64,000 bases of DNA from Heterobilharzia americana (taxonomy: Eukaryota > Platyhelminthes > Trematoda > Strigeidida > Schistosomatidae): contig OX104129.1 of NCBI GenBank assembly GCA_944470555.2, positions 82,296,820 to 82,360,819 on the forward strand, in the 5' to 3' direction. How positions within the stretch are numbered: the stretch's first letter is position 1; each line of letters opens with the position of its first letter. The notes below the pieces were generated by a model. It searched no databases and was not told where the DNA came from. It saw only the letters and a list, made by a program, of their open reading frames with translations. Positions 22,184 through 60,555 of this stretch are shown piece after piece. Both the position numbers and the translations under genes were made by a program.

Positions 22184-25100
22184 GTAACGTAATACCAACT
22201 GTTTATTGTAAAGTATGCATTTTTACGGTAACTTTTGCCGTTCTAAGAATTTGAAAGTTTGAGTTATTTGTCTTTTACTTGCAGTCTGTCATGTCATTAT
22301 TTGTGTAGGTGGGAATGTTGACTTACGTATAAAAACTGGACATATATATATATATATGATGTGATATGATATGGCAAACACGTTTTAGTGGTAACTACTC
22401 AGCAAATGAGAGTCATTTTTGAATGATCATCATGCTAACTTTCATTTTGTGACTTTTACCTGGGTAAATTTCAAGTGTGTTATTCCTCGTCCTGCTAAAA
22501 ATATTTTAAAGTAGGCTTTGTCAGACAGCCAGACTTTGACTTAATGAAGTCATTTGATTCATATTTCATTTTCCGAATTAACTGTCATAATTTTAGTGTC
22601 ACTTCGCTATCACATTACATCATTTTTTCTTCCTACCCCTAAATTTTAATGTTTTTGAAGTGCGATAAACATTAAGCTTATTCGCATGAGAAATATGTTG
22701 ATGAGCAATTGGTAACTCTCTTTTTCACAAGGGCCCAGTAGTATCAACACAACTAGTCTATCCATATGTAGTAGTACTGTCTAATGTATCGACTTATTTA
22801 ATTTCATCAGACGTTATACTTGTGTTTCTAAAAAGTCCATCACTGATTTCCGAGTGAAATTTCCAGGAGTTAAGATTACACTAACTGGGTATGTAGCTGT
22901 AACCCGTTCATCTGAGCAGCCGAATTTCAACCACAGTGGCTTATTGACTTCAGTATTCGGCCTTCAAGCGCTGGATCGATGGTCCATACTCCGTTCAATC
23001 TACTTTGATCCGGGTTATTTTGTAGTGTCTTAAGTCCTTTCTAAACAACAGTTGCGCTATTGGCTTTTGCCAACACATGCCATCTATGACGCCACCGCGA
23101 CATCCGATCGCTCATGAAGGGTCGAGTGTACTGTACTGGAGTTCTCTCTGTTCTATTGTGTGGCTGTGAAACATAACCATTAAAGGTAGAGGTCATGAGA
23201 TGAAGGCTTCGGATGTTTGATGGCCGTTGCCTTCGTATCATAGACCATGTTTTGTGGTGTCACGACGTCAGTAACACAAAGGTCAGGTGTAGAGTTTAAA
23301 GGGGTTAAAAAAAGTAAGTTGATTAGGTTGTGAATCTCCAACGCCTCATATGTCTAGATGATGTGTTATGCATGCCTAGTGAACATCTGCATCATTGTAA
23401 AATGTTGGGTGAAGTCTGTTTAGACTGGTAAAAGGCTCCGGGTGACCAGATTAAAACATGGGATGACTGCATGAAGTCGTTGACTGTTGGTTTGAGTGAT
23501 GTAGGGGGATGCAGATTATTGATTTGAGATCCGTGAGACAAGAGACATGAATGGTTGGAGATTGTGGGTGATATGGCTGAGAATCGGTGTCAGTGGTGCA
23601 TATGTATCTACACATTGTGTTTATTTTGAGCGGTATGGTGTATTTTGTATTTTGTTATTCCTCCTTCCTTTGTTTGACTGGTGTGTATTGTCTTTGACGT
23701 ATTTTTCTTTCTTTGTTTATCTTTGATTTTATTGGGTTGTTACTTGATGTTGTGAAATGAGGTGTGGCAACTTGTATTGTTTCGCAGTGATGTCTGGTCC
23801 TATGTTGATATTGATTGATTGACTTTGTGTTCAGAGAATCGCCTACTGTTCAGTGGGCTTCATAATGATATAATACAATACAATATAATAATATAATATT
23901 GGTGATGTATAACCTTCAACCCACTTTATCTTACAATTCACGTGAAAAGATTGTAATTAAAAACATTTACATTTTATTCACTGTAGGTTTGGTTAAAAGT
24001 TTCCATTTTTCTACCACTCATTAGTTATCAGTTATGCCTATCAGTTTATGCATTATACTCCCAACTGACCGTGAATTTACCGAGGTGGTTCAGTTTGCAG
24101 CATGATAATATGATGAGATGCAGTAGTTTTATCACCTACTCTACTATTATTTAAACTCCCTGACCTTTAAATTTGATGGTTTGAAAAACTATAACTATAA
24201 CCTTGATAAAGCTACTGATACTAAGTAGCGAAACATCAGCTGAAACAAATTAATTTTGTTATATATTCATTGGGAAATGCAAATACACAAATAATGAACT
24301 CCTTTTGATTTTCTGCAGTATCCCCGGGTGTTCGTCTCCTCTCTAGCCCACTGACTCAACCGCTGACTCCGACTCAACTGGCAGAAAAAGAACGACAAAG
24401 ACTGCTAATGTTGCGACCAAATGGATCACGAGTGTTGAGACGTGCTGGAGGCGACCAGTTCAGTAAACTTAAACAAGTTAAAGAAGAAGACAAGTTGGAT
24501 GACTCTTTGGATCATCGTCGGGGTAAATCTGTTGCTAAAGATTTACCAGGATCAGATCCAAGAGTTGATGTGGTTGAAAGGAGGTATGCAAAAAATTTGT
24601 TTGATAAACCTCCGTTGTCAAAATTTGGAGAAAAAGGGAAAGTAATCAGACCAAAATCACACACAAAGGCTATTGAGGAACACAATGAATTATTAAGAAG
24701 GCCAAGTTCGGCGGACAATGAACAGGTGAGTAGTACTGTAGGTGGGGGTTTATAAATTTTTCAAGTTGGTATTCATCATAGACTGACATCACTTCTAGAG
24801 ACATTGGAAACCTGGGAGCACTGGACAGCTGCTTCGTCCTAGTATGGGACTCTTCAGCAGTGCGCACCCACAACCCTGCCAGGAATCGAACCCGCGACCT
24901 TCAGGCTACGTGGCCAGCACGTTACTATTGGGCCCGAAGTCCGAGTGAGATGTCGTGACCAGTGGGGCAAACCTGGTAGCCATGAGGACAAATACTCAAA
25001 GGCGACATTGGTTGGCGGTTGCGCTACATTGTGAACTGACGGAAGTTGGAAATATGGACCACTGGATTCCGATCCAGTGGCCCTGAAGGTCACGGGTGCA

Positions 25101-26436
25101 CACTGCTGAAGAGTCCTATACTAGAACAAAACGGCTGTCCAGTGCCCTCAGGTTTCCAGTGTTTCTCCAACTGATGTCAGTCCATGATGAGTACCAACTT
25201 GAAAAGTATCCAGTCTAGTTGTGCAAAAATCATGCTGTAAGGTGTGAAAATTATATCCCGTTCCGCTCTTGATTTGTTTTCATTTATGTGGTACTCTTAT
25301 TCCATCTTTTCACACTGTTTCATGTGAACAGATTTTCTAATCATCGTATGCCTTCATCTACACTAACAACATTACATATGGCCTTTACTGACTGAAGCTT
25401 TTGTACATGGTAGATTCATGTGGGTAACTGCAGTTAAGGTATTTCTCAATTGATAATGATCGATGCCAACTAATTATATGACAATTCTCAGGAAAAACAC
25501 GTAAAAACATGTAAAATGCAAGAAATAATTTTTTGAATAGAGTCAACAAACATTCTAGTCTTTCATTGGGTGGTTGTTCTGGTATCTTCTGAAGACAAGT
25601 TCACGTACTTACAGAGAAAGACGATGTCAGCAGGCTATACTGCCTTGATAAATATCAGGATAAAAATCTGGTCTAACGGAATTCAACAACTCATCCCTCG
25701 GAATCTTACGTTCATATTTTCACATTAATTTTGGTTTCAAGGTTGAAGGCTTGTTAACAAATTTACTAAAACATAATTATAAAGATGAAAGTTGAAATTC
25801 AAATTTTTCGAGAAAGTAATACTTAGTTGATAGGAAGTGGCTTAAATAGAAACCAAAATTTCAGGTCATTAGCCGTTAAGGTAGGAGATTTTAGATTCCG
25901 ATTTTTTTTTCGCATCACAATATGGTCTGGGGAAACCTTATTGAACAATTTTGTCTTACAGTTGATCGGTCAAAATAAGTTATTTAACTTTTGACTTAGT
26001 GGTTTTATATATTGATGAATACTTAATATAAATGATATAGTTTTGTCGAATAAAGTGTGTTCCTTGAAGCCACAGGCCGGTCTTGGTCTTATGGTTTTCG
26101 TGGTTGAGTGAAGTATAAGGTTCTGAGGGAGAACACTCGCTATTCGTATCTAGTCCAACTGTCTTATTGTGTTATTATTATTACTCACTCAATGATTCCA
26201 TCAGTTAGAGTTGTGCCGATGAAAATGTCCTGGATAGAAATTACACTGTAACTGATTAAAAGGAAGCTTATTCAATAACTAACCTCGCTTGGCGAAGGTG
26301 ACATGGAGGAGATCGTGTAAGGAGGAAATGAGAGCTTTTGGGCTGTCGTGGAGCCAGGCTCAAAAGTTTGCGGAGGACAGAGTGCACTGGAGATGTGCTG
26401 CTGAAGCCCTATGTTCCATTAGAAACCCAAGGGACA

Positions 26437-26469
<33 letters not shown>

Positions 26470-29400: not shown

Positions 29401-32400
29401 ATATTATTATTACGACGAACTGATGACCACTGAGCCGGAAACCCAGAAGTAGCATGTTAGAATCCTGTCGCGGTCCAGACTTTCATTTCACCCTCAATCA
29501 TCCCCAGTATCAATACAAGTTTGCCAGACGTCGAGCATCTCAGATAGTCAAGCTGATAATCAGTATGATACTCCCCCTCTCTAATTCAGGTTGATTTGGT
29601 TTGGGATGAGAAGTCTTGACTGGGCAGCCAATGTGAATACGACCAAGAGATAGTAATACATCACGAATTTACATGGCGATCGGGCAAAACCCTTAGTGAT
29701 TGAAGTGAAGTCAAGATCCGGTCAGCATCCAGGTTTCTTAGCTCAGTTGTTAGAGCACTAGACCATATTAAATGTCGACTAAATATTCGTCCTTTAACTT
29801 GGTCAAAAGTAGTGGGATTAGGATTTTTCATTATCTTTAACCCTTATCCAAAGGTCTTTATATTGACATTTTATTAGTCCATTACTACTCAGTTTCTTAG
29901 AAGACAATGTTTCTGTATTAAACTCGGTGATTACATTGGTCCCGTATAATAACTATACAAACAGCTATGTTTCCAGTGGATTTCCGCCTTTTTCCGGAAC
30001 AATAAGTCCTTCCTTCTCAGTGTTATCATCTATATTGTCTTTCAGGAGTATGGGGACAATGTTTTAAGTGATCAGTGCTCATTGTCGTGTGTTGAAGTGT
30101 TGCCAGTGTATAAAGACATTTCCCAATTCATAATCCATCAGTTAGGAGAAACCTGGAACTAAGTATTATTTAGTCACTTCACTAATAGTTTTATAACTGT
30201 GTGGTTATTAGCTACTTGTTCCCTTCATTTGATAAGTATCTTTCACTTAATTACTTGTTATTCTTGTATTCGTTGTTAGCTGCTTCAATGGAGAAAAGTA
30301 CAGTCGGTATGTGTTCATGGTCGTTCAGCAACTAACCACCTGGGAGTATTTTGAACCTGGAATAAACGTCCAGTGTCTCTGTTGTTTGATGCTTACAATT
30401 TCCCATTTATATCCAGGGTTGAATTGCTGGACCTCTATTGGCAGATGGACTCCAATGCAGATGCTTCGGTACTGCCCGAATATTCATGATGTTGGACTCG
30501 CCTTGGTGACTAACAGTGAAATCCAGGACGCGCATTTCGTTTTATTCGGGACTCAGCTGGATGTACCTCCACTCTAGTGACTGATGTTCTCACTGAGATT
30601 TGAACCCAGTACTCATCGCTCCAAACGTCAAGGTGCTATCCACCAGGCCACTGGGGCACAATAGCCACATCTTGTGCGATGGGTGTCAGTTGTTGTTTGA
30701 TATTTATAATTTCCTGTTCCTGTGCTGGGTCGAATTGCGCGACCCCCAGCTGATGAGTCCCAAATAAAAGAAAATATGCGTCCTGGATTCCACTGATAGC
30801 CACCAAGTACACTGCAACATAATGAATATTGGGATAGTATCTAGGCGTTACGAAAGGGATTTCCAACAAACTACAGACATTCATCAATAGCTGGCTACGC
30901 TCGTTACTGAAGCTCATATGGCCAGAAAGAATAAGCAACAAGGACGTCACTGTAGCTAGCAATGAACCAACCAAGAACCTATCGCTCAACAAATATGCAG
31001 GAGGAAGTGGATATGGATTGGGCATATACTGAGAAGGCCGACTGGGGACATCATGCTCCAGGCCAGGCCGTCGACTGGAACCCAGATGGGAAACGACAAG
31101 TTGGGCGTCCGAGGTGAGGGTGGCATGGAAGAGATCGTGTGAGGAGGAAATGAGAGGTTGAGGGCTGTCGTGGAGCCAGGTTCAAACGTTTGCGGAGGAC
31201 AGAGTGCACTGGAGATGTGCTGCTGAAGCCCTATGTTCCATTAGGAACCCAAGGTACAAATAATAATAATATAATCTAGGTATCCACGTAAGGAATACAT
31301 CTTCCAATAGAGGTCGAATCAGTATAGCAACGAGAAATTACAAGTATCGATAAATTCTAAGGTATAGTTTACAAAACACAGTATTAGAAGACTTAAAACG
31401 TTTAGTCTTAAGCATTACCTGTTAGCAAACTCCTCCAGTTAAGTGGAACAGAAGATTGTTTCACTCATGTACAACTGAAACAATGTTCAACTTATCACTC
31501 AGGATTATACAAAACATTTAGATGTGAGACTACTGAACAATAATCTCCAAATACATTTTCACCTCACAAGTTTAACACAGATCACTCACTAAGCTCTGGT
31601 CCATTAACTTATTGATTACTCACTATTCGAAAGACCTGACCTAATAATGAATTTTCTCACCTGAGGAAGCATATCTAAGATGACTAACCTTTAAAGCCTC
31701 TATTTACAAGAGTTCATCAAACAAGAAAAACAATATTACCAGAATATTTTCATGCATGCATGTATGTATTCCATCGATTCTTCTCAGCTAATTGACAACC
31801 TATTCAATATTATTCCATATTAGATTTGTTTATTTGATATACAGCACACAGTGATACAGTAGTATTTACTTGATGAAGTTTTAATCATAAATTATTTCTC
31901 ATAATCACACTACTTTCGACATCTGATTTTTATAGTCCTGTCATCTGATATTCTCTGTTCTTATTGGTAGTAAAGTTTTTCATATCTCTGATGTAGGTGT
32001 TGCATCATTCCTCTGAACACTTTGAATGGGAATTTGAGAATGTTTGGGATGCGGTTTTCACTACTCAAATGCAAATTTTTGCTCCAGGATTGGTTTTCAG
32101 CGGTACCGTGGCTAACAATAGAAAGTGAAGTGGTTGAGTGTGTCCACCACTTCACTTACCTGAGAAGTAGGATCAACCCTGGTGGCTCAGTGACCGATGA
32201 AATCTCTTCACGGATGCGATAGGCTCGATTGGCTTTTGCCAATTTGCGCCACCTATGGCGCCGCCGTGATATCCGTTTGTCTACTAAGGGTCGCATGTAC
32301 TGCACAGCAGTCCGCTCTGTTCTACTGTATGGCTGTGAAACATGGCCACTGAAAGTGGAAGAAATAAAAGGCTTCAAGTGTTTGACCACCGTTGCCTTCG

Positions 32401-35400
32401 TAGTATAGGCCGCCGTATTTCATGGTGTCACCACCTGAGTAATGCAGAAGTCAGGTGTAGAGTTTTAGGGAGAAGAGGTAAATCAGTAGACGAGGTTATG
32501 AACCTTAATCGATTGAGATGGTTGGGACACGTACTACGTATGCCCAGTCACTGATTGCCTCGTCACACAATGCCGGCCGAAGTAGGCCCAGACTGGAAGA
32601 AGGCCCGAGGTGACCAGACTAAAACATGACACCAATGTATGAAGTCTCTGACTGTTGGTTTAAGCCATGTAGGGCGATGCAGACTAGGTGGTTTGGGTTG
32701 GCGGGACAAGAGAAACCAGAGGTTGGAGACTCTAGGTGATGATATGGCTGAAAAGCGATGTGAGTGGCGTAGATGTATTCCCACACACATTATCGTCATC
32801 TTAACGACGGTATATCGAATCTCACCATTTTGTCATCCTTCCTTTCTTTCTTCTCGTATTTTATGTTTCTTTTGACTGCATTCTCTTATTTTCATCTTTC
32901 ACCTCACTACCTTTCTACTTGATGTAGTGATATGAGGTGTGGCAGCTCGGACCGTTACGCAGTAATGCCTGGTCCTATGTTGATTATGATTTGATTGATT
33001 GATTGACATGTGTTGGGTTTAGATTCAATGAAACAAGATTTAGTAATCCATCCCTTTCTCTACCTAGTTATGTTGGACTTAAGTACAGTGGTTTTATCCC
33101 ATCCTATTGTGTGGTTATGTGTTAATGCATCCATTGCAGTAACCAGGATTTTTTCCAGATTATTGATCTTAATTGCGTCTATATTTAGTTGAATTGCTGT
33201 GTTCTGATTATCTAACTGACCTTGATCAGCTAATTTGACCTATGTACTTAACCTCATAGTCATTACATGGATTATGATTATGAGCAGTGATAATTTATGC
33301 TCAAAACGTCATCACATAAATACTACTGTATCACTCTATGCTGTATCTCAAGTAAAAAAATCTAGTATGGGATTGCATTCTACCTCAGTGTCAGTATTTA
33401 CACTTATATTAAATGGTTAAAAAGATGTTTCATAGGCATTTAAGCTTCGAGTTCTTAGTTGTTCGAATCTTAGCTGCATAATATGTTTCATTGACGGTAG
33501 GGTTAAATGTCCGTCTGACTGTCAACCTATTTACATGATCAGTGTACTGTAGCTTGATGAATACATCTTTCGTTAAAACAGAGTGGATAAGTTTTCTCAA
33601 TTACAAACAACTCGACCATAGTTGTTACGTGTATTTCTCAATGTTATGCTGACTAGTTGTTTTCCATTACCGTCTCCATCAACAATCTTTTCCTTTCTTA
33701 CAACGTATCGATTATGCATATTCGCTGAATTTGATTCAATAAGCTGACAAAATCTTTGCATGGATTTTGCCAACATACGCCGCCATGATATCCGATTGTT
33801 TATTAAGGGTTGAGTACACCGTACAGCAGTCCGTTCTGCTTTATTGTATGGCTGTGAAGCATGGCCATTAGAAGTGGAAGGCATAAAAAGGCTTCAGGTG
33901 TTTGGCCACCGTTGTCTTCATGGTATTGGTTGTGTTTCATAATGTCGCCAAGTGAGAAACGAGAAGTCAGGTGTAGAATTTAAAGGGGTTGAGGAAAGTA
34001 AGTTGATTAGGTTGTGAATCTCCAACGCCTCATATGTCTAGATGATGTGTTATGCATGCCTAGTAAACATCTGCATGATTGTAAAATGTTGGGTGAAGTA
34101 TGTTTAGACTGGTAAAAGGCTCCGGGTGACCAGACTAAAACATGGGATGACTGCATGAAGTCGTTGACTGTTGGTTTGAGTGATGTAGGGGGATGCAGAT
34201 TATTGATTTGAGATCCGTGAGACAAGAGACATGAATGGTTAGAGATTGTGGGTGATATGGCTGAGAATTGATGTCAGTGGTGCATATGTATCTACACATT
34301 GCGTTTATTTTGAGTGGTATGGTGTATTTTGTATTTTGTTATTCCTCCTTCCTTTGTTTGACTGGTGTGTATTGTCTTTGACGTATTTTTCTTTCTTTGT
34401 TTATCTTTGATTTTATTGGGTTGTTACTTGATGTTGTGAAATGAGGTGTGGCAACTTGTATTGTTTCGCAGTGATGTCTGATCCTATGTTTATCTTGATG
34501 TTGAAGCCTCGTCTGTATCGGCCATAAACCATGATAATTTAATTACTATCCTGTCTATGTAGGGTTTCTGTGGGTAGATCGTTTTATCGTTCCATCTTTC
34601 GGTCTACTGACCATTTCGTGTAACAAGAACAAACAGTTGTCATTCTCTTATAAACTTGTTAATGATGTGCAATTTTGTACTTCATTGATTCGATTTGGAC
34701 GTGAAGTAGCATAACAGAGATCACTTGTGGTTAGGATATCATCCACATATCAAATTTAGGAGATTAAAGTTACCAAGGTAAGGCAAGATTGGTAACAGTA
34801 CCCACGAAATCTATGCATGACAGTTTGGCTTATTTTATTCAAGTTAGTGAAGAGGAATAATTATATGAAGTTCAGTTTATCGTAAGAATGATGGAACCGT
34901 TGTTTTTTGGTTTTAATTCACTCACAGTATAAAATCTGTTTTAAAAAAGTATGAATTATAATTCTAGACTATTTTTCAATTGTTTTCCAGACAGATGAAA
35001 CAACGACAGAAACATGTGAAACTAAAAATACTGTTAAACTCAGTCGTCAAGGCGTCAGAAAACAAAGTTCACTCGATGCATTCGACAAAATGCCTAGAAC
35101 ACATCGTGCAATGGAATATACTGGTTGGTGGCTTAGAGCTAGTGCAGAAGCCTGGGAACGTTTAGCTGATGCAACAGATATTGAATTCCCTCATCCACCT
35201 GGATGTGAGACAGAAAATACTCGACATTCTTTAGAAATTAATAGACAACCTAAACGAAGAACAGCGCTCAGTTTACTGTGTGATAGTGAATTCGGTCAGC
35301 GATTATCGTTGAGACTGGCATCAGCTTCTGTTATTGATGATAAAGCTGCCTGGCAGTCCATACATCCATGGGCATCGGCTTTAACTGAACGTCCTTCATC

Positions 35401-38400
35401 GACATCTCATAATCGTCCAGTTTCTGCTGGGACTAATGTACCCAAAGAGTTTTCAAATGATGTAGTATTTGGACTTGAAGCAGCCGCCTATTTAAGAACG
35501 TTACTTCGTTTGGTTACAAATTTAATCACAGTTAAATGGTAGGCATTTTAAGATTCTCGTAATTTTTAACTAAATGTTGGGGGTAATTATTGCACCTATT
35601 TTATTGATTGAAATTAGATAAAGTAAACTGATTATGCATAATGGAGTAAAGTCTAACTAACTTGCATTTTTTTGCTGTCAAGCAACAGTCTTGCTGTTCA
35701 TCTATGATAAATATGGACGGAAAATGTAGGCATATCTGATCTTTGAACCTCTACAAATGTCACATGTTTTTTTTTCAAGATTTCGGTACACAAACCAGTC
35801 AGTAATCAATAAATCTGCTGAAAGTGTGAGGATCAATCTAGAAGAAAGCAAAAAAAGAATGTTACGGCTATCGAAGTCAAAATCATGATCAAATGCATAG
35901 GTAAATGACGGCGAAGATAGTTAATTACCTTTAAATCCGTTAAGTTATAAGAAAAGAAGTTTGTGATGCTCACTGACATTGCAAAAAGTCATCTAACATT
36001 GGGAAAGGGAGACTTGCTGTGTGGATAGTGTCAATTTTAGCTTTCTAGAAACACTTTCTTGTGGTATTCATCACTGGCTGGCAGCAGTTGGGGGATCATC
36101 ACAAAACTAGAGGCATTGGACGGCAGTTTCATTCTAGTATATCACGTCTTAGCAGTGGCCAGCCACGATCCTGTCATAGTTCGAACATTTAACCGTCAAG
36201 TCTCGTGGCGATTATGGTGCCACTTATACCACTGGTCAAAACTGTCGTACGTCTGTCCATTCGTGATATAGTGCGACCATCATCCAGTGCTATCGGTGTG
36301 TATTTATCTTCAGAAATGATCTGGTTGGTCTTATAGGTTCGGGCATCTCATTAAGACTTCAGGAAATCCATCTTGAAGAAGTCATTAGTGAACACGGAAA
36401 AGTAATCCAATGTGAGACCTGACGATTTCCAGCTTAGTTTTTCACAGAGTTTGTGAGTGCTCACTGCTGAAGAGTCCCAAAACTGAGACGAAACAGTTAT
36501 TCAGTACTCTGAAGCTTTTAATGACTCTCAGACTGATATAAGTTGGCTGTGAATACTACCTAGCAGCCAACCCATTCCCACAAATTACCAATTAAATAAG
36601 TGGGTATGTAAAAAGGATGAACAATTCTCTGTTTCATTAGTTGCTTGAATGATATTCTGAGAATTATCACCCAGCGATAGTATTCACAGGAGAATCAGAA
36701 AACTTGTTCGATTAGAGTGTTACATGAAAACCCGCCATAAAGGCTTTTTACATAAGGCAAACAGACAGACAGATGGATGGACAAAACGATTAACACAGAC
36801 AAAAAGAATCAATGTTGAACCTCACACACAGATGCATCGGCTCACGTTGTCACACTTCACAGTAGCTTACAAACAACAAGTGGAGAATACAACACACTGA
36901 TATGAAAGTAGACAAAGTTGTGTAAGAAAATGAACAATGAACAGTGAAGATAATAGCTAGTGCGAATATTTAACCTGCAGAAGAAGTCAAACAGTGAATA
37001 CATGTGTGCCACTGTGACCAATTTCCAGTCATGTTACAAGAAGTTCTCAACCACTGATTTCTTTCGTTTTGGAGATCCTAACTAGGCAGTCTACATCTTC
37101 GCCACACCACTCAGACCACCAGTCATAGACTTCACGCATTGGTTGTAGGTCTTTGTCTAGCCACTCTAAGCCTTCTTCCAACGTGATCCGACTTCTTTTA
37201 GCATGACACGTTGAGACAGTCGGTGACTCGATATGCACAGTACATGTCCAAGCCACCCTAGCCAACGACGGTTCACAACCTCATCAATCAACTTTCCTAT
37301 CTTGCCTAGTACTTTTCGCCTTACCTATATAATGTTTAGACGGTGATTCCACCATATGCGAGCAATCCCACGAAGACACCTATAATCAAATACCCTTAAC
37401 TGCTTCATGTGGCTTCATGGTGCTTAGGGAGATGATTGTCAGTCTGTGGGGTGAGGGTTTGAATCCTATCCCATCTACCGAGGTTTGAGAAGCCATATGG
37501 TATCACTAGCCCTCATATAATGGGTGTGGCTCGTCGCCTACTGTAAGAATACGTACAAGGCTGTTGAGTACATTTTGATTTCGAACTGCTTCATGTCTTC
37601 TACTTTTAACGGCCATGCCTCATAGGCGTATACGTGTATCAATAAACATATTTATTGCATACAATAACAAAGATTTTCAATAAATTCTTTCTTGAGTGTC
37701 TTTTTACCTAGTTGTTATGTAAACAAGGTAGGTAACATGAAGATTGATTATTATCTCTTTCTGAATACACAGGTAAAGTTTTAACCTTTTTTGATAGATA
37801 TAAGCTGTGTGAATTGGCATCGAATACTACCAGTGTTTGATTGGTGTTTCATACCCAGCGGTTGATGGATAACATTAGCTACTGATATCTTTTAGTTCAC
37901 TGACGATATTAAGGTTCTTGAAAGATTATTGATTTAAATCATTAGCTTAGTTACTTTCAGTATCTAAACCCTTTTATTGATTTCCGTTTTCATAACTTTA
38001 TCATTCCATAGTTTGTAATAATTGGAAAACGATCATTTTGTCGATTTTAAATCACATGATCAAACAGCTCTTGTGAGTAAACAACAAAGGATATGGAATG
38101 GCTGGTCAGTTCTCTGATTTGTTTAGCCTCACGTTACCATAGTTAAGGGAAATTAATTAGTTAACGGGAAAACAAATTTGACGGTGGTGGGGAAAAAATG
38201 CAACAAGGCTGAATAAGGTATGGAATAAAAGGTATAGCGTAACAAGATAATGAATTTGTAAAGAATAATAAACCACTACTAAATTTCATCAGTAACTCGT
38301 TTGTTTTAGTGATACTAAGGCATAAACTATTAATTGTATACGTATCAGAGCAATTCGACCGTTATATAGCAGTGAGAAGTTACAAGTATCAAGCAACAAC

Positions 38401-41400: not shown

Positions 41401-44344
41401 CAGCATGAATTGCAAACGACAGGAATGGCTTAAGACTTGCTGCAGATGCATAGAAAACCTGACCGTACTTGTATCACGAAGGAGGAGACAGAATTAGAAC
41501 TAAATGAACTATATCTCAGCGATGCAGATTTACCTTGACATGATTATGAACGACAAATTGCATTCGAAAAGTCATCCAGCAAATGGAACTATTTCAATCT
41601 ATGAAATATCCTACAGACAAACTTCAGTGGAAACACAATTTCCCACGATACTGAAGTTTTACCGCATTATTATCGTTATTTTCTCTAGGGTTCCTAGTAA
41701 AACATAGGGTTTCAGTAGTACGCCTCCATTGCACTCTGTTCTCTGCAGTCTTTTGAACTTGGCGCCGCGACTGCCCACAAGCTTTCATTTCTTCCTCATA
41801 TGATCTCCATATCACCCTCACCTCGGACGCCCAACTCGTCGTTTCCCCTTCGGATTCCACTCGATGACCTGGCCTGGCCTACTCAGTGTATGCCCAGTCC
41901 ATCTCCACGTTTTCCTGTATATCTGTTGGGCGATGAGTTCTTGGTTGGTTTGTTGCCAGAGTTCCTTGTTGCTTATTCTTACTATTCTGGCCATCTGATC
42001 TTGAGTAAAGAGCCAGTGTAGGCAGTTGTTGATGAATGTCTGTGGTTTGTTGGAAATGCCTTTCGTGACGCGCCGAGTTTCTGAACCATATAGCAGCAGT
42101 GACTTGACATTGGTGTTAAAAATTCGGTTCCTGTACTTTGTGTTGGGTACAGAAGATCTCCACACTGATTTCGGGTTAATGAAAGCCTGTCTTGCTGTCT
42201 TTCCGATTCCGGTTTTGACATCGTCGCCTGTGCCACCTGTAGTTGAAACTATGCTGCTTAGGTAGGTAGGTAGGTGGGTGATAGAGACACCTTCCTTTAA
42301 GTTTCTCCCGTTGATCGGTCTAGCCAGCGTGTGGCCATCTTCTCGCTGCTCACGGTTTGCTGCATGATCCAGTCGACGACAATCAGGAAGATCATGGGTG
42401 ATAGTGGGCGGCAGCCTCGTCTTACTCCTATCTCCACTTCACTTCACTGGCGTCACTGAGCTTTCCATTGTGCATCACTTGGTATATGGTGTTTTCATAT
42501 AGCTGTTGAATGAGGTTGGTGAAAGTTTGTGGTATTCCGTAGTGTTGAAGCAGTCGTCTGCCAAATTACTTGTTGGTCGATGCTGTCTGAGGCCGGCCTT
42601 TTCAGTGTCGACAAAGTTGAGGTAGAGGTTTGACTGGTGTTGTATACTCTGTTCTATGATGATGCGTAGCGTTGAGTTGGGATTTGATCCGCACATGATT
42701 TGTTGTTGCTGAAGCCAGCCAGTTTGTTTCGGTGATAATTTTGAATCGACAGAACCTTTTAATCTCTCGAGGATGATGTGGCATAATATTTTGTTTTGGA
42801 TGGACAGGAGCATGATTCCTCGCCAGTTCTTGCAAAGACTTAGGTCTTCCTTGTTTGGTAGTTTGACAAGGTAGTCGTTCTTCCAATCAGTCGGCAGGTA
42901 GCTTTCCATCCTTCCTTGCAAATGTTCTGCAGTAGTGGTGTGAGCATGTCTGCTGTTGTCTCTGTGTCTGTTTTCAGTGCTTCTGGCGGAATTCCACCTG
43001 TCATAATACAAAGAGGCGATAATCTCTTATGAGACATTCTTCATATTGCGTGTGTGTGTGGAGTGGGATAACAATAAAGCATCTTATTCATTCACCGGCA
43101 TGTCTAGACATGATAACTATGTATATCTAGGTAAGTAGAAGTCACTGGCTTTTTATAAAATGGTTTTTAATTATCAAGCGCTTAAAATCGAAAGTGAAGA
43201 TTAGTTTTACGGAGTGGCTTTAATAGCAACTGATGAGAAAATCAACTAGGTTTCTTTGTTTTTTGAAAAAAAGATTTACTATTCAAGCTGGAGTAACAAA
43301 ATGTGGTTGTTTATTTCAGCAATTGCTTGGATAGTCTCTGTCATCATTCATATGTTCAAGTTTTGAAGAAACCGTCATCAATGCAATGTACTTGAATGTT
43401 TGAGTAACATGCTGTTAAACTTGACTGCAGTTAGTATTTCAAGGTGTTATTCATCGTAGAACAAAGGAAACCTCGGAGCACTAGAGAGCTGTTTCGTCCG
43501 ACTAGTACGAGACTCCTCAGTAGTGCTCACCCACGACCCCACCAGGGATCGAACCTGCGACCTTTAGGTTTCGCGGCCAGCGCATTATCATTGCGCCATT
43601 GGGTCAGAGTCTAATGGTCCATATTTCCAACTTCTGTTAGCTCACGATATAGCTGGCCACGGAACCTGAAGGTCGCGGGTCCCATCCCTGGCGGGGTCGT
43701 GGATGCGCACTACTGAGGAGTCCCGTGCTAGGACGAAACAGCTGTCCAGTGCTCCCAGGTTTCTTTTGTTCCTCCAACTTATGTCAGTCTACGATGAATA
43801 ACAACTTGAAATATTTCCAAATCTCCACATTTACCTCAGAATACAGTTAGTATTTATTGTAAATGTTTCATTTTTGACAAAAAAAGTAGACAATGATTTT
43901 ATTAAATATTCTTGATTTCTTTCACAAAAAGAAATTTGTTTGAAGTAAATATACTAAAATCATTGGGGGTCCATTCAATAATAATGTATTTTGAGGTTAA
44001 TTGAGATTTTAATTTTCAGATAGTATTCATTATGAATTAATGAATGGTTACTACGTTCACCGTAAAACGTAAAAAGCCTTGAGTTCTATCCCCTATAGTG
44101 TCACAATTATGCATTGCTGAGTAATCCTATATTAGAATGAAATAGCTGTCTAATACTCTCAGGTTTTTTAAATGTTTCTCCAAGTAATAATTATCGGTGA
44201 TAAATACTATCTCAATAATATATTTACTTGTAATCATCTCATGAATAATAGTGTTTTATGTGAAGATATTTTCCATTCACCCAGATTTTATGTCTTAGTT
44301 TATTTGTACATGGTATACACAAATCAGATAATCGTTTCTTTCTG

Positions 44345-47400: not shown

Positions 47401-50400
47401 CAGAGACTTGGCGCGTTACGAAAGGGATTTCCAATAAACTACAGACATTCATCAACAACTACCTACACTGGCTCGCTACTGAAGATGAGATGGCCAGAAT
47501 AATAAGAATAAGCAACAAGGAGCTCTGGGAACGAACCAACCAAGAACCTATCACCCAACAAATATGCAGTAGAAGTAAGTGGAGGTGTATTGGATATACA
47601 CTGAGAAGGCCGACTGGGGACATCACGCGTCAGGCCAGGTACTCGAGTGGAGTCCTCACGGGAAGCGATGAGTTGGACGTCCGTGGTGAGGGTGACATGG
47701 AGGAGATCGTGAGAGGAGGAAATTAGAGGTTGTGGGCTGTCGTGGAGCCAGGTTCAAAAGATTTCGGAGAACAGAGTTCACTGGAGACGTGCTACTGAAG
47801 CGGTATGTTCCATTAGGAACCCAAGGGACTAGTAATACGCAATTATGTCATTCTTAGTTAATTACAATCATTGATGTTGAACTAAATGTTATGCCATATA
47901 CTAATCGATACTTTTGTTTTGTTTTTGCTTAAAATTTTCCCTTAGTGATGTTACCATTATTGTACAATTCTGTGAAGTGACGGAACTACCAGTACAACTG
48001 ATTAAATTAATGCAATCGTTTATTAACTGTACAAAATTGCATCAAGTAAGTCACCTTTTAATGAGATAATAAAATTTTGTTCAGTAGAACTCTTCGACTT
48101 TTCTTCTCGTCTATGGTCCTCCTAACCAAATCGACTTTAATATTATGACTAATAGATTATTGAGGGTTTCAAGGTAAGGTTGTTTCTGTTAGAATTTATC
48201 AAGATGTAAAAAGTAACTAGTTCAACCAGTGAAGTCTATCAGGAGCATTAAAATATATGAAATGTGTAATATTAATATTTTGATCAATTGGGACCATGTG
48301 GTACAGTTGTGTTTATATTGCCCTACTTTCATCTAAACACAAAGAGATAATTGACCTGAAGAAGAATGTCATAGATATATAAAGGAAGCGTATCTTTTCA
48401 TACCTTTTACTATGATGATTGTCAATAGACACGGTGCCAAGGTTAGGCACTGAAATTCAATACATGGCAGTATGCACGGAAAAGGAATAAAATGATACCA
48501 TCAATAGACTTCATGAATACTCTTCAGCTGATGTATACAGTCTAAAAGTACAATTTCATAGTTAGGAAATCAATAATTTTAAGTTGTACAACAAAATCTT
48601 TTATATAACACGTGAGAGAATTAATTGTACAAACAGGTAAAAGATGTGAGAAAGAAAAAATAATAGTAAATAAACAAATAAAGAGTTATGTAATGAAAAC
48701 AAAAAAACAGGATCAAATAATCGTTACCAGGGGGAGAGAACGACTAATCTCACTTTCCTTTTGTAAACAAAAGTCAAACTGAAAGCGAAACTTAGTAATC
48801 CAGACATTTTCTCTACGTTTGTAATTTTAAAAGTATTCTAGGTTTCAACCTGATTTTGTACCCCTACGAGGTGTCTGGTTAAAATTTAACTTCCTAATCA
48901 AAACATTTAACAAAAGAAGTAGGAAATTATGCTCTGGAAACAAGCTAAATGAAAAACTAAGCATTAGTGAGAAGTGTGTCCGTGAGAATGGACATCCTAG
49001 AAAAGAAGAGATTGAGAGAAAGAAACATCTAACTGTGAAAAAGAAGAAGGTTTGAATACACCTTACATTTAAAGGAGATGTTATATCCAAGGGAATAGAC
49101 ACAAGAATGAAAGGGGGGGGGAGGAGGGTACTGAGAAGGAGCTTTTCTATAGATAGATTTATACGAGTATACAATACCACATGCTCGCTAAAACAGTCAA
49201 ACTGCTAACTATATACATATGCACTCGCGGTAACAAGAACATTGGAAGGACTTAGAGAAGAGCATCCATTCAGTTTTGCTGAGTATATCCTCAAGAATCT
49301 GTACTTGAAAGGAAGTGAAATTCTAACCAGTGTAATTGTTAAATACCTCACAGGCATGCAAAATCAGGTTGAAACCTAGAATGCTTTTAAAGTAATAAAT
49401 GTACAGAAAATGTCTGGATTACTGAGCTGTTGTACTAAGGATTATCCACTACACCACCGAGCCACGATAGCCACTTCTTGTGTGACGGGTATAATTTTAG
49501 TGTTATTGCTTGGATTACACGGTCACTGATTGGACCGAATTGATCAATCTCTGTTGGCGTATAGGTTCCTGTGGGGATGCCTCGATATTGCCTGTTTTAA
49601 TTATGCATAATAATGATGTTTCAATTCTTTGTTTAACTCCTGGCTCTGACTACTCAGTTTTCTAGTTCTATTATTTAGGTGTTTGACCAGACGCACCTTG
49701 ACTGACATTCGATGAGATGATTTGAAGTCTAGATACCTGTTAGAATGTATCGGTTTCCTACAGACGGTAGTATGCAAACTACCGTCTGTTCGTCCTTTTA
49801 CTCTTCAATACAGCATAGCTAATTCTCTTTGTTCATTTTCTACACCGTAAGTAAATTGGATTACGCTTACTACTGAGTTTATACATATATGAGGAAATTG
49901 TGGGTATGTTTCGATTTCAATACAGTAAATGTGTCATCCACATATCGCTACCATATCTTATATACACAACTAAATGTTCGTAAAGCCATGTTTTCCCAAC
50001 TAACCATAAATATATCTGCTACGATTAGGGATATTGGTGATCCCATTCCTACTCCTTCTGTTTGTTTATATATTTTGTCCTGAAACTTGTAGACCGTGGA
50101 GGTCAGGCACAACTTTACGCCTAATATGATTTCACCAAGTGATATCTTAGTTCTGTAAGTTGTCAGTCAATATTTAATTGATTTCTGACTGTCTGCAGTG
50201 CCATATCAATTGGTATTCTAGAATAAAGACTTGTTACATCGAAAGTAAACCAAAAAAGGCTAGGATGAAGAAACTATGCAGAGCTAGGAAATCATCGTAT
50301 GTGGGATCTTAATGGATCTAAGTGATATTGTGGTGTATATTTTACTCCTTGACTTGATCAATAGACTTGAGTCAGTGCTGATCACGAAAAGCTAGACAGT

Positions 50401-53400
50401 TAAATTGGTTACCGATTCGTATATTTATCTAACTAACCAGGAATAATGTTTGGTTTTTATAGGGATGCACAAGTCTTTAATTTTTATGGTATATTGAATT
50501 CAGCTGATTACATTGTCACTTTTGTTTGTTTTTTCGCTTTTATTCAGAAAATGTGGTATGAACAAATCCTCTTGGATCTTATTATAGCGATGAATGCATA
50601 CTTTGTCAGTGAAATTGGTCAAAGACAAGCTATTCCACATTCTGTGTAAGTTTAAAGCGGGGAAACAGTTGACTAGTTCACAGCGTATACGAATTTTGAA
50701 TTGCTAACCTGACGAATTTGTGTACTAGTTTACTTCTTTGGTGATGAAATACTGGTTTGAAGATGTAAATAAAAAGGGGACTGAGAACATCCCTCTGAAC
50801 TACTTTATACAACAATGTCCTAAAATATGAGATGTGCAGCTGAAAATAAGGCTGGTAATTTCAGTCTATGATTCGATGAATTCTATTTGGAGGTTTGTAG
50901 GCATTTATTGATTTAAGGTTGGTATTCATCATGGACTGACATTAGTAGAAAGAACATTGGAGACCTAGGAGGCCTGGACAACTGTTTCATCCTAGCCTAC
51001 GGCTTCCCAGCTATGCGGTTCCCTGGCTCGGGTCGGACCCCATGACCTTCCGGTTCTGCGACCAGCACGTTACTGCTAAGTCACTGGGTCGGAACCAAGT
51101 GGTCTGTATTTCCTACTTCTTTCAGTTCACTATTGGTGCACATCCTCCATTCTTCTCACTGGTGACTAGCTTCGAGAGGCGATTCCCGAAGTTACAGTGA
51201 GAAGTCGTCACTGGAGGGGTCGAGCATGAGAACAGTTTCTCAACGACGGCATTGGATGGAGGTTTCACTATACTTTGAACTGACAAAAGTAAGAAATGGG
51301 GACCATTAGAGTTTGATTGCGGAACCTGAAGGTCTTGGGTTCGATATCTGGACGAAACAGCTGTCCATTACTCTCAGGCTCCCAATGTTTCTTCAACTGA
51401 TTTCATTTCCTGATGTGAATACCAAGCTGAAATTAATAAATAAATCCCTGCAAACCTTCAAGTTGAATTTTAAATATGATTTTAAGTGAGTTTTACACCA
51501 ATCAATACAAATACATTGATCAATATAGTATGAGTCTTTTTTTATGATTTGTTTTTTTACTGTTCTAATGGAATCTCTATCGACTAAACACTAAACACCA
51601 CACGTAGACACGTTGTAAGCGTGTGTACTACACACCCCGACTAGGCATTTAATATGTGCTAAAAGCCAAGATAAGTATTATTATAGTCATGTGATTTACA
51701 ATATTTTACTCTGATCAATCAGAACTAACCTTGTCGTATTGGACTAATCACATCCGTAGTATAATCAAGCTGTTAGTATCGATTACTTTGGATGAAAACT
51801 ATTGTAAGTGTTTACTGCCTGACTATGCTGATATTCAATTAAGTTGGTTTCCATACTCCTTTAAGATTATGACTGTCTAACTAAGTGTTAAATGGCTATA
51901 AGCAGTGATCATCAATTTGCCTTAGAAATTGTTTTTACGTTCAGTATCGCTTTTATAAAGTGATTCATAATGCGAAGCCCAGTGATGCTTTTGGACTGAA
52001 GACAGGAGTAAAACAAGGCTACATACTATCACCTACAATATTCCTGATTGTAGTGGACTGGATCATGCAACAAATAGTGAGGAGCGAGAAGAAGGGGTTA
52101 CGCTGGCTGGGCCGAGGAAAAGAGCCTAGAAGATTTGGATTTCGCCAACGATGACTTGTGTCTAATGTCTTGTGGCACAAACTTGAAGATGTACAGGCGG
52201 AAACTAACAAGTTGACAGAAGAGGCAGGGCAGGGCAGCGAAGACGCGACTTCGAGTGAATGTAGAGAAGACACAGGCGATGATGATACCCGACCAACGCC
52301 AACAGCAACAACAACAACAGACACCAATCACCATCAGTGGCAGAAACCTAAAGGAAGTAGCCTCCTTCACCAACCACCTAAGCATCACTGTTTCAACTAC
52401 ACGCAGCACAGGCACACACGAAAATGTCAAAGCCAACCACGATCGCAAACACAGCAACACAGGCATTCATTAACCTCAAACCAGTGTGCAAATCCAACGC
52501 ACTGCACTCAGCCAGTATAAAGTGTGAACAACATCCGGATTTTCAATACCAACACCAGTCAAGTCAGTGCTTCTGTATAGCTCAGAGACTTGGCACGTTA
52601 AGAAAGGCATTTTCAACAAACTACAGACATTCATCAACAACTACCTACACTGGCTCGATACTCAAGATCAGATGGATTGCCAGAATAATAAGAATAAGCA
52701 ACAAGGAACTCTGACTGGCTGGCTGGCTGTTAACGAACCAACCAACAACCTATCGCTGAACAAGTATGCATTGGAAGGGAGTGGAGATGGATTGGGCATG
52801 CATTGAGAAGACCATTCAGGAACATCACGAGTCAGGCCAGACCCTCAAGTGTAACCCAGATGGGAAGCGATGAGTTGGGCGTTTGATGCGAGGGTGACAT
52901 GGAGGAGATCGTGTGAGTAAGAGAAATGAGAGGTTGTGGGCTGTCGTGTAGCCAGGTTGAAAAGATTTCAGAGAAGAGAGTGCATTGGAGACGTGCTACT
53001 GAATCGGTATGTCCCACTATGAACCCAAGGGACAAATAATAATTAATCGCTTTTATAAAAATTTTAGTAGACTTAAGTCATCTTAGAGACTCCCGCACAT
53101 CGGATCCATTACCACAACGAAGATCGTTTTCATTGATATTCAAACATGAAGTTTTGTATGGTTAATTGTACGTTGTAAGAGTCTGCAATACTGATACAAT
53201 CAGCGTTTCTATTCGTCAATCGTTTATTCACACCTAAGATTGTACTATTCTGAGAAGAGGTCGATGAAATCAACCATCTCTGCGAATTCTCAACGTGGAT
53301 ACTAATTTATGTACAACTCATTCAAATTTATCGATTGAAGCAAGGTATTTTTGCCAATAATAATTAGGAATATTGCATTAGACAATCGATTACTCCACGT

Positions 53401-56400
53401 TTCAAACTATTCTTATTGATCGATCATTTCTGGGATTCTGATATAGCTTAGCTTTTTGATCATTGATTATTATTTGTCCCTTGGGTTCCTAGTGGAACAT
53501 ACCGATTCAGTAGCACGTCTCCAGTGCACTCTCTTCTCTAAAATCTTTTCAACCTGGCTACATGACAGCCCACAACCTCTCATTTCTCTTACTCACACGA
53601 TCTCCTCCATGTCACCCTCGCCTCAAACGCCCAACTCGTCACTTCCCATCTGGGTTACACTTGAGGGTCTGGCCTGACTCGTGATGTTCCTGAATGGTCT
53701 TCTCAATGCATGCCCAATCCATCTCCACTTCCTTCTAATGCATACTTGTTCAGCGATAGGTTGTTGGTTGGTTCGTTAACAGTCAGCCAGCCAGTCAGAG
53801 TTCGTTGTTGCTTATTCTTACTATTCTGGCAATCCATCTGAGCTTCAGTGTAGAGCCAGTGTAGGTAGTTGTTTATGAATGTCTGCAGGTTGTTGGAAAT
53901 GCCTTTCGTGACGCGCCAAGTCTCTGAGCCATATAGGAGCACTGACTTGACTGGTGTTGGTATTGAAAATCCGGATGTTGTTCACACTTTATACTGGCTG
54001 AGTGCAGTGCGTTGGATTTGCACACTGGTTTGAGGTTAATGAATGCCTGTGTTGCTGTGTTTGCGATCGTGGTTGGCTTTGACATTTTCGTGTGTGCCTG
54101 TGCTTCGTGTAGTTGAAACAGTGATGCTTAGGTGGTTGGTGAAGGAGGCTACTTCCTTAAGGTTTCTGCCATTGATGGTGATTGGAGCTTGTTGTTGATC
54201 AGTTAATAAAATCGATTTTTAGGTATGAACTCTGGTTGCAAATTAGGTTGTCTTGTGAGGTGTAGATTTCAGGTGGATTGTTCAATTTTTGATTATTACA
54301 TAGAGCTGGTGATTTTAGCCCTTAGAAGTGAGTTTCTCTTATACTTTACGAAATTTTGTAGATGTTTATAATTGGTTGGTTTAATCAACTGTTATGTCAT
54401 GGATTGGCTTAGTTGGTTACGCTTTCTTACACTAATCTATGCAGGGATGGTTAATCGAGTTCTTTGTTTCGTATAAACTGAAGTTATTGCTGACGATGCC
54501 GTCCAGAAAGACGATGAAATCTTCACAAATACGCAACGCAGCTCAGAGAACACAATAAAACCAAGAAACAAGTGTCCAGTGCTCGCAGTCCACGATATAT
54601 ATGTCAAGCTGAAATCGATAAATAATTTCCCTGCCAATCTCCAAATTGAATATCTGATTACTATTGCAATGGAGACTGTTCATTCGTTTTTACTAACAGT
54701 AGAGCATTAATATCTAAGTTATTCGTGTGGCAGGAACTGAGAACTTATCATTATTATGATTTATCCCTTGAATTACTAATGGAACATAGGGCTTTAGTAG
54801 CACGTCTCCAATGCGCTCTGTTGTCTGAAATCTTTTGAACCTGGCTCCACGACAGCCCACAAGCTCTCATTCCTTCGTCGCACGATCTCCTCCATGTCAT
54901 ACTCGGATACCCAACTGAGAACTTTCACTAGACTAAAGTCAATATCATCATTCCTATTTCTTGACTGTTTCAAAACCCAGTGTGCCAAAAAAAGAGAGAG
55001 AGAGATTGCTTAAGTTTTCATGCAGTTGGATGGTAGTCATGCTATAAACAAAGTGAGCAAAATGGATTTAAACGTATTAGTAGAATGGATTCAGCGATAA
55101 AAAAAAATGATAAAGGAATGTATAATTCTATTTTCAAATGAAGTAAACATTTTTTTATTCCGAATAAATTAAACTTTCATAATCGATAGTAATCAAGATG
55201 GCTTGCATTAACTTTTTCTCGATTCATTTTACTTATTTCCTTTTCGATTGTTTTTATTGTCATTGTTGTTACCAATTTAGATTAAGAGGATATACAGAAC
55301 ATGCACTTTGTTTCATTGAACTTGTACCGAGACTTGTGAATCAGGAATGTGATAAAGAATTACATTTACGCGACCAAACTTTGCTAGTAAGTGAATGATC
55401 CTATTATTTTTTAAGTTATATAAGAATAACTTATATTCTCTCTTCTTACACCTTCGTTATAAACCAATCTTTAACTGTATATATTAAGGTTAAGGGACAT
55501 ATGATATGGCTAGATTTGTGTTGATATAAGCTTTCGTTTAGAGCTCATCATCATCATCATTATCATCATTATCGTTTAGAGCTGTTGAGAATCGAACCGT
55601 TGTAGTGATCAACTTCAATGCAGAAACTGAAAAATGTTTAGGTACAGTCTTCGAAATCCTAGCGTGGATCACTTCCTATAGTTGTGGTCAGACAACTGTT
55701 TATTTTTAGACGACATGAATTTCAGATATAAAGAGAAATATCTTCTTACCTGGTGTTCACCGATTTGAACTCAGCGTTTGACACATTGGCCGTGTCATTA
55801 TTGGTTACCATTCAAGACCACCAATGGAAGACTACTGTCGATCCAAGCATATGTTTTGGCATTCAAATAGAGGCATAATGACTACAACTGGGAGATCATT
55901 CTGAATTCATTCTTTTATCACTACTTTATAAAACGATCTGTCGAAAAAGCATTTGGGTAATGACAATTCCACTCATCCTGATGAAGTCTGGTTCTATTTC
56001 AAGACCTTAACTGACACTCAGGAAAACAGTAGAAAGGATTAGGAAGTCACAGTATCTTCATTCGAATTGATGGATACTCACCAAAGTATCTCTGCAAGCT
56101 CTAAGCACAAGAAGAAGTGATTCTAGCTTCAGTGTGGGGTGACAAAGAGCTTACGCAATGACTACGAGCAGTGAAGGTCAAAGACGATAACCAATAGTAG
56201 ACGGTCGTTAGAATTAGTAAGAAAAATGGAGTGAAAAAGTTGATGGTTAGTGTGATCATGGCGGGGAAACATGAGTTTGGGATTAGTTCACCGGAGAGGT
56301 GACTGAAGCCATGCGAGATATAGTTCAACTGACTTCCAGCTATCCTCGATTGCTCTATGTTTATTTACAGTTGAAGCGCAACATTGAGATAGGGTTTCCT

Positions 56401-59050: not shown

Positions 59051-59076
59051 GTAAGTTATTTGTAATTGACTACCTA

Positions 59077-59953
59077 TATATTATTATTATTATTTGTCCC
59101 TTGGGTTCCTAGTGGAACATACCGATTCAGTAGCACGTCTCCACTCTCTTCTCTGAAATCTTTTCAACCTGGCTACACGACAGCCCACAACCTCTCATTT
59201 CTCTTACTCACACGATCTCCTCCATGTCACTCTCACCTCAAACGCCCAACTCGTCACTTCCCATCTGGGTTCCACTCGAGTACGTGGCGTGGCGCGTGAT
59301 GTCCCCAGTCGGCCTTCTCAATGCATGCCCAATCCATCTCCACTCCCTTTCAATGCATACTTGTTCAGCGATAGGTTGTTGGTTGGTTCGTTAACAGCCA
59401 GCTAGGCAGAGTTCGTTGTTGCTTATTCTTACTATTCTGGCAATCCATCTGAGCTTCAGTGTAGAGCCAGTGTAGGTAGTTGTTGATGAATGTCTCTAGG
59501 TTGTTGGAAACGCCTTTCTTAACGTGCCAAGTCTCTGAGCCGTATAGGAGCACTGACTTGACTGGTGTTGGTGTTTTAAATCCGGATGTTGTTCACACTT
59601 TATTCTATGTGCTTTAGATCTACATATTGGTTTGAGGTTAATGAATGCCTGTGTTGCTGTGTTTGCGATCGTGGTTGGCTTTGACATTTTCGTGTGTGCC
59701 TGTGCTGCGTGTAGTTGAAACAGTGATGCTTAGGTGGTTGGTGAAGGAGGCTACTTCCTTTAGGTTTCTGACATTGATGGTGATTGGTGTCTGTTGTTGT
59801 TGTTGTTGTTGCTGTTGGCGTTGGTCGGGTATAATCATCACCTCTGTCTTCTCTACATTCACTTGAAGTCGCGTCTTCGCTGCCCTGCCTCCTCTGTCAA
59901 CTTGTTAGGTTTCTCCTGTAGAACTTCAAATTTGTTTGTGTGACATTACATTT
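59077..59953 (-). mobile_element. RTE-like insertion 26 bp after an STK36 exon
   Basis: ACTACCTA at 59069-59076 and 59954-59961 forms an 8-bp target duplication. The tail is ATATATTATTATTATTATTTG. On the minus strand: [20 protein letters not shown], then [18 protein letters not shown] and [20 protein letters not shown]. The insertion begins 26 bp downstream of the exon 14 donor site. Confidence 0.93.
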
Positions 59954-60124
59954 ACTACCTACCTGAAGACATTTTATGTACGACTCTTGATTTTAGTATT
60001 TACCATGACTTTGATTCAATGAAATGCTCAATAATATCCACGGATTGCTCCGGTTATTTAAGATATTACTGTTGTTATTATTAATAAGTACTATTGTACT
60101 TCGAAGTTTATAGGTATTTCCTTT

Positions 60125-60555
60125 TTAGGTATGTATTCGTCTCGAACCGATATCAGTTGAAGAACCATTGAAAACCTAAGAGGACTGGATAACTGTTTCA
60201 TCCTAGCAGGGGATTCGTCTGCAGTGCGCACCGGTGAATCCACCAAGGATTAAACTCAGGAACTTCAAGTTTCATGAGGAACACGTTAGCCGTTCAGTTA
60301 CTGGATCGGAGTTCAATAGTTCACAGTTTCCTCGTTCTATTAATTCATGATACAACGCTACTATCCACCAAGGTCTTCAATCGGTATCCGCTTCACATCT
60401 GACTGGTTGACTCCATAGGTCACAGCTTCTCATTAAACCTTCGTTATATGCATCCGGAAGCGTGTCACTAAAAGATCATCATACAGTAATGTCCAGTGCT
60501 GACAAGTTTTCAATCGTTTCTCAACTGATGTCCCTCTGTGATGAATATAACCCCT
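60125..60555. mobile_element. Palindromic hammerhead element, locus 5
   Basis: Left minus arm from GTATGTATTCGTCTC, with a hammerhead-like region at 60185-60230 and a degraded B box (AGGATTAAACTCAGG). The right arm is shortened, keeping AATGTCCAGTGCTGAC and the end GATGAATATAACCCC. On the minus strand stem II reads ATCC/GGAT instead of GTCC/GGAC. Confidence 0.7.

Follow-up and report, generated by a model that had tools for sequence, protein, structure and literature searches.

The schistosome repeat SM-alpha has long been called a short interspersed nuclear element (SINE). According to the available text of PMC8490949, SM-alpha/Sj-alpha and the Schistosoma mansoni elements W25, W26, W27, and W36 are SINE-like repeats with a hammerhead ribozyme inside, and three of five W25.2/W36.2 ribozymes tested cleaved in vitro. 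Metazoan retrozymes of the non-long terminal repeat (non-LTR) type, as presented in the examined text of PMC7229834 (Cervera and de la Pena 2020), are non-coding, carry a type I hammerhead, have RNAs of ~170–400 nucleotides (nt), and form direct tandem repeats of more than one unit with a G+C content below 45%; Penelope-like elements (PLEs) are named there as strong candidate movers of animal retrozymes. PLEs in turn are characterized, in the accessible portions of PMC3846280 and PMC11167929, by head-to-head arms with a 30–40 bp tail on one of them, short duplications, and tandem partial copies, and hammerheads have been reported in them. Penelope copies with head-to-head pseudo-LTRs (pLTRs), a 31-bp tail on one pLTR, and duplications of 8–10 bp are described in the accessible part of PMC3846280, which favors self-priming for the rotifer Penelope. 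In that of PMC11167929, a purified PLE protein from a lizard is reported to cleave both target strands and extend them, and reverse transcription begins at two adjacent internal RNA sites bounding the genomic tail. Here, a window of 64,000 nt from Heterobilharzia americana (GenBank assembly GCA_944470555.2, contig OX104129.1, positions 82,296,820 to 82,360,819), situated on a chromosome-size contig of the 664.9-Mb genome, was found to contain inverted pairs of a hammerhead-bearing repeat. We conclude that the repeat is a retrozyme-like element, as a sequence-only reading of the window had offered among its guesses, and consider it likely that the pairs are single insertions of this ~400-nt hammerhead retroelement, made by a PLE through two-ended target-primed reverse transcription.

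At each of the five places for which an inverted design had been proposed, a minus-strand arm on the left is followed by a related plus-strand arm, and the differing spacer lengths noted between arms are real and key to the nature of the element. Most window copies are 68–87% like the unit; the best-kept one (43440-43843) is bounded by an exact 12-base repeat, CAGTTAGTATTT, as judged by eye. The unit itself comprises 400 nt, that is, an arm of 219 nt plus a missing segment, U, of 181 nt recovered from loci with more than one lap; positions in it are given as u. A 34-base ribozyme core has 5,123 matches genome-wide at no more than one mismatch, as against none for a reversed control pattern, and copies are fewer than cores since one dimer can carry two. 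The type I hammerhead, the size, and copies longer than one unit are common to this element and the metazoan retrozymes described in the examined text of PMC7229834, and the unit is probably non-coding as they are. Unlike those direct tandem repeats, most copies here are dimers arranged head-to-head, their ends are of the PLE type, and the G+C content of the unit is 50% (40% in the window); the term "inverted" is absent from the examined text of that paper. Neither is a two-ended inverted insertion described for SM-alpha and the W elements in the available text of PMC8490949, with which the unit was compared by description. With PLEs the unit shares the head-to-head arrangement of arms, a tail of 30–40 nt on one end, and short target-site duplications, but 400 nt cannot hold a reverse transcriptase open reading frame (ORF), and the element is therefore at most a PLE client, not a PLE.

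The layout was examined in the first 60 clusters among 100 listed exact cores along contig C1 (loci carry L numbers); they were picked by the exact core alone, so that at least one arm per locus holds it, and L054 was left out as a segmental duplicate of L053. Of these 59 loci, 44 are dimers, every one head-to-head (minus, then plus) and none tail-to-tail, and 15 show one arm, where second arms under ~25 nt would escape detection; single arms with random partners are thus not the prevailing form. Extra neighboring pieces were disregarded in typing at L062 and L082, as was a 25-nt overlapping piece at L099. The outer ends of the arms fall into two sites, S (u176-192, median u188) and T (u216-231, median u222), which are combined as S-T in 37 dimers, S-S in three (L075, L087, and L088, less similar to the unit), S-unclear in three, unclear-T in one, and T-T in none. 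Under independent strand choice at most half would be mixed, and at least 37 mixed among 40 fully typed dimers has P = 1e-8 (6e-8 for 34 of 37 when one member of each of three re-copied pairs is removed). The spacing from S to T in S-T dimers has a median of 33 nt (range 25–44). Flanking duplications, which the sequence-only reading had proposed looking for, are present: they measure ~12 bp and reach a score of at least 8 in 34 of the 37 S-T dimers, compared with 58 of 1,332 mismatched flank pairs (4.4%). A search with joined flanks gave 24 junction-spanning matches, some of them at L062, L094, L098 (within a simple repeat), and L099; alignments were inspected for four other sites. At all four, an uninterrupted relative matches both flanks and the point where they meet, seamlessly to the base for L078/L068, L105/L017, and L106/L109, and without gaps but with more divergence for L051/L109; two of the four uninterrupted targets are PLE copies.

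In contrast to the outer ends, the inner ends of the arms are spread round the unit. The two inner ends lie within 50 nt of each other in only three of the 37 S-T dimers, where permutation predicts 9.5; this shortage of near-equal ends, seen over L048-L107, may reflect loss of perfect palindromes. At the junctions, overlaps of at least 2 nt are as frequent as in simulated blunt joins (13/37 versus 169/596, P = 0.45) and filler of at least 5 nt is in excess (7/37 versus 4/596), so that end joining of the two complementary DNAs (cDNAs) fits better than annealing at microhomologies, which was rejected. Junctions were also compared among the best 40 of 8,870 candidates matching the unit at 43445-43812, a biased sample that includes the window copy and was not used for the dimer rate. 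These 40 look-alikes represent 33 junction classes (three of 3, one of 2, and 29 single), and their inner ends lie at u313-378 in the left arm and at u400-64 in the right; among the 11 grouped copies, only window/L022, L026/L043, and L027/L028 are alike in joint sequence. A common junction is found in only three pairs among the 44 C1 dimers, and those pairs differ in their flanks. Given these classes and the rarity of shared junctions, each insertion usually produces its own new dimer, and inheritance of the dimer as a unit was dropped for most copies, the query having itself picked look-alike junctions. The suggested trimming of copies is likewise better replaced by two cDNAs of unequal length. 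L091 and L092 (C1:13.34 and 13.35 Mb) are 99.4% identical as dimers, with the same junction and 18-base filler and unlike flanks, from which it follows that a whole dimer can be re-copied. The window copy at 43440-43843 and L022 have the same junction sequence and the tail at opposite ends, which may reflect chance among thousands of dimers or re-copying from the other strand.

Among 100 arms, 16 are longer than 400 nt, with a maximum of 622 nt (this set still includes one extra piece of L082 and the re-copied pairs L070/L071 and L097/L098). Long direct arrays of the unit were not found in the loci fetched. Since multi-lap arms run past T into U, the RNA must extend 3′ of the start, which is accordingly internal to it. 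Positions read twice within one arm agree in 1,227 of 1,251 cases (98.1%) as compared with 96.2% between loci, and 15 of the 24 disagreements fall in the re-copied L070, L071, L097, and L098. The two arms of one dimer also resemble each other more (97.5% mean agreement) than arms of different loci (96.4%), agreement being higher in 20 of 25 dimers (P = 0.001); these are the members of the 37 S-T dimers that share at least 60 positions, out of 29 with both arms at 90% or more. A circle read repeatedly would explain both kinds of likeness.

Outside the window, 28 of 40 arms in 20 better-kept dimers pass the gathering score of Rfam RF00163. A hammerhead in each arm, as claimed from the sequence, does not hold throughout the window: two of the ten arms pass with Hammerhead_1, and matches in two more stay below the score. 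Core positions of the ribozyme differ from the unit in 5.5% of cases as against 9.1% at its other positions, in a sample partly selected by core. Stem covariation was tried as proof of ribozyme selection and found weak, two-sided changes being few and broken pairs more numerous, and it was set aside. The ribozyme cut site was rejected as an insertion end, as inner ends are not concentrated at u122/123. The predicted fold of the unit is better than that of shuffled sequences (z = -3.08; none of 100 shuffles as good), and between the start sites (u187-219) 26 of 33 bases are unpaired in it. The evidence for the proposed RNA polymerase III box is weaker: a B-box-like GGTTCGATCCC is present, but the tRNA-like head around it scores 22.3 bits in the window against a cut-off of 29, and ARAGORN reports 0 tRNAs in six loci tested. 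The supposedly common word at the outer tails is barely above chance in the window (7 matches versus a shuffle mean of 2.18, with one of 100 shuffles reaching 7).

A candidate source of the enzyme is present in the same genome. In one 2,654-bp tandem unit of its main PLE family (L109), the Pfam domain RVT_1 scores 31.6 bits against a cut-off of 29.6, and GIY-YIG reaches 18.5 bits, below the cut-off of 22.6 (E = 0.0025); the label PLE rests on these two matches and on layout. Among the 150 PLE matches listed, neighbors within 8 kb are arranged minus-plus in 25 cases, plus-minus in none, and on the same strand in 18, the latter at exactly 2,654 bp in 16 cases and at 2,653 and 5,307 bp in one each. 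One of the minus-plus pairs, L108, is a PLE insertion with head-to-head arms, ends ~40 nt apart, and a 13-bp duplication: by BLAST its left arm ends at PLE 835 and its right arm at PLE 795, and a copy of GGATTATGTTATG lies on either side. No clear duplication was seen by eye around the PLE pair in the window. Head-to-tail PLE arrays with a period of exactly 2,654 bp and up to six copies (C1:50457634-50471272, C6:11853008-11861338) could stem from many laps of reverse transcription or from tandem transcripts. At 16101-16174 on the minus strand, ~90 bases from a short PLE arm, a degenerate match to the type-P1 twister ribozyme scores 36.0 bits against a cut-off of 67.2 (E = 4e-4). The ORF remnant at 62508-62888, which looks like a PLE endonuclease, has no Pfam family at E ≤ 0.01 and matches at least 150 places (17,347 candidates).

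Head-to-head arms, starts at S and T, scattered inner ends, multi-lap arms, duplications, and empty sites make up the observed anatomy, and a PLE with a matching insertion anatomy exists in this genome. In the insertion proposed here, the PLE, supplying its enzyme in trans, would cut both target strands by its endonuclease with a stagger of ~12 nt, and both target 3′ ends would prime on one RNA, one at S and the other at T. Each cDNA would then run backwards round the RNA, probably a circle, over a variable length, and the free ends of the two cDNAs would meet by end joining, often with filler bases. By putative self-cleavage, the hammerhead probably frees unit-length RNA from transcripts of copies in which one strand carries two units, for instance L107 with its two hammerheads in each arm; the freed unit would circularize to give the predicted circular template. 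Several observations weigh against this account. Fifteen of the 59 loci have only one arm, with a duplication score of at least 8 in seven of them, and the 40 look-alikes divide less cleanly into 31 S-T or T-S, three S-S, one T-T, and five unclear. By eye, a duplication can be made out in both L038, which looks S-S, and L009, which looks T-T. The three C1 pairs and three look-alike pairs with a common junction indicate that some dimers may be re-copied whole, and multi-lap arms would also be expected from a linear transcript with identical units in tandem. At E ≤ 1 the unit and the 2,654-bp PLE do not match, and the start-site sequence is found in no PLE, one family having been examined; Rfam detects no hammerhead in this PLE at E ≤ 10, and the presence of one was rejected. 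Finally, the two strands did not differ in start site for the PLE in the available text of PMC11167929, whereas here the sites pair one-to-one.

One rival account is a two-ended PLE insertion from linear multimeric transcripts, with the ribozyme and circles irrelevant to mobility. PLE hammerhead mutants still inserted in vitro according to the available text of PMC11167929, and the PLE of this genome makes its 2,654-bp tandems with no hammerhead detected; we nevertheless regard this explanation as unlikely given the 98.1% agreement of laps within an arm and the lower divergence of ribozyme core positions, the latter in the partly core-selected sample. It is rather improbable that the unit is a SINE driven by a long interspersed nuclear element (LINE) with frequent twin priming, in which the second target strand primes inside the RNA polymerase III transcript and inverts its 5′ part. 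Priming by both target strands, ~12-bp duplications, an inverted 5′ part, and a tRNA-like head with a B-box-like motif would all be expected from such a process. The start of reverse transcription is internal, however, with multi-lap arms passing from T into U; two narrow start zones, one per strand, recur in 37 of 44 dimers; the arms overlap rather than divide the RNA, some exceeding one lap; and the PLE of this genome has a like insertion anatomy. Insertions of a tRNA-derived SINE would moreover each consist of one unit, its RNA starting at a constant 5′ end, in contrast to the scattered inner ends and frequent dimers seen here, and the earlier judgment that this is not a simple SINE is upheld.

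The sequence-only reading had also considered that the element might be a transposon with long inverted repeats or a SINE multiplying as an inverted dimer. A palindromic unit copied whole, whether a foldback transposon, a miniature inverted-repeat transposable element, or an inverted-dimer SINE, could draw on the fact that all 40 scored matches to the window unit, the best 40 of 8,870 candidates, are dimers, and on the pairs with a common junction in both samples. As a general explanation it is nonetheless very improbable: the 33 junction classes with their 29 single members and dispersed inner ends, the occurrence of a common junction in only three pairs among 44 C1 dimers, and the tail on one end alone in most copies contradict it for most copies, and it is kept for a minority. 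Least credible is self-priming, in which the first cDNA would fold back to serve as its own primer and template. Head-to-head arms would then arise in one event, and the arms within a dimer would be alike, as they are; yet the inner ends should adjoin, a prediction by which fold-back self-priming was rejected in the permutation test, the outer ends should be mirror images instead of lying ~33 nt apart, and the junctions often hold filler.

Features of the window (positions as in the 64,000-nt stretch; percentages are identity to the unit or, for PLE, to the PLE)
Feature	Positions	Strand	Remarks
Best-kept copy, S arm	43440..43653	-	outer end u189, inner end u356
Best-kept copy, T arm with extra tail	43652..43843	+	outer end u218, inner end u28
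Left target-site duplication	43428..43439		CAGTTAGTATTT, by eye
Right target-site duplication	43844..43855		CAGTTAGTATTT, by eye
Type I hammerhead	43707..43752	+	RF00163, 38.9 bits, above gathering
B-box-like motif	43545..43555	-	GGTTCGATCCC; tRNA model only 22.3 bits over 43534-43605
Left arm	24742..24934	-	87%
Right arm	24933..25212	+	71%
Type I hammerhead	24818..24863	-	RF00163, 44.4 bits, above gathering
Hammerhead below cut-off	25100..25145	+	30.9 bits
Old copy, left arm	36062..36171	-	71%
Old copy with left arm 36062..36171, right arm	36453..36509	+	81%
Hammerhead match below cut-off	36461-36507		22.8 bits
Old copy, left arm	50911..51133	-	71%
Old copy with left arm 50911..51133, right arm	51160..51433	+	in three pieces
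Old copy, left arm	60146..60471	-	68%
Old copy with left arm 60146..60471, right arm	60490..60562	+	76%
Additional old single arm, main hammerhead family	63245..63569	+	74%
Second hammerhead family, left arm	30506..30683	-	hammerhead 30521-30562, 42.9 bits
Second hammerhead family, right arm of head-to-head pair	30746..30803	+	hammerhead 30744-30788, 36.2 bits
PLE head-to-head pair	31813..33412	left -, right +	outer ends PLE 797 (left) and PLE 838 (right), 41 nt apart
Single short PLE arm	15912..16004	-	PLE 729-832, 96%; between GAATAAGTTT copies 15902-15911, 16005-16014
PLE ORF remnant	62517..63220	-	includes endonuclease end

A second hammerhead family, which we liken to SM-alpha, is also present in the window as a pair at 30506-30803, both arms of which pass the Rfam cut-off. 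Four pairs of this family were seen in the examined loci, all head-to-head; by eye, the outer end of one arm extends beyond that of the other in the L073, L090, and window pairs, the L027 pair being cut by the end of the locus. This hints that the second family shares the two-ended anatomy. Just before the 24.7-kb copy of the main family, 24723-24742 resembles, by eye, the end of an exon and its GTGAGT donor, and the copy may open an intron. Two other inverted structures lie in the window. At 52312-54197, an inverted repeat with arms of 736 nt, 95% complementary and 414 nt apart, looks tail-to-tail, unlike the PLE-type pairs; its left arm overlaps an inward-pointing ORF that resembles, by eye and with no Pfam family, the LINE-type ORFs of the window. 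Nested inverted repeats (I2, I3, I7, and I11) surround ORFs with RVT_1 and DUF6451 at 45867-47720, an old inverted LINE-like structure.

The inverted, two-ended insertion of a retrozyme-type element is a variant on known kinds of retrozymes and PLEs and is apparently unreported, no report having been found in the open-access literature (most subscription papers lay outside the search). We lean slightly toward the broader view that Penelope-type retrotransposition is normally two-ended on one RNA circle, with start sites ~33–40 nt apart and mostly head-to-head insertions, that the tail and inverted pLTR are its footprint, and that hammerhead retrozymes, SM-alpha included, are its clients. Where a single genome offers short and well-preserved copies in the thousands, insertion events become readable in numbers, revealing the start site on each strand, the length of the cDNA run, and the mode of end joining. 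The anatomy of the dimers argues against self-priming as the origin of inverted PLE ends and constitutes a structural link between ribozyme-bearing retrozymes and PLEs, and the two-ended model becomes testable with a single purified protein.

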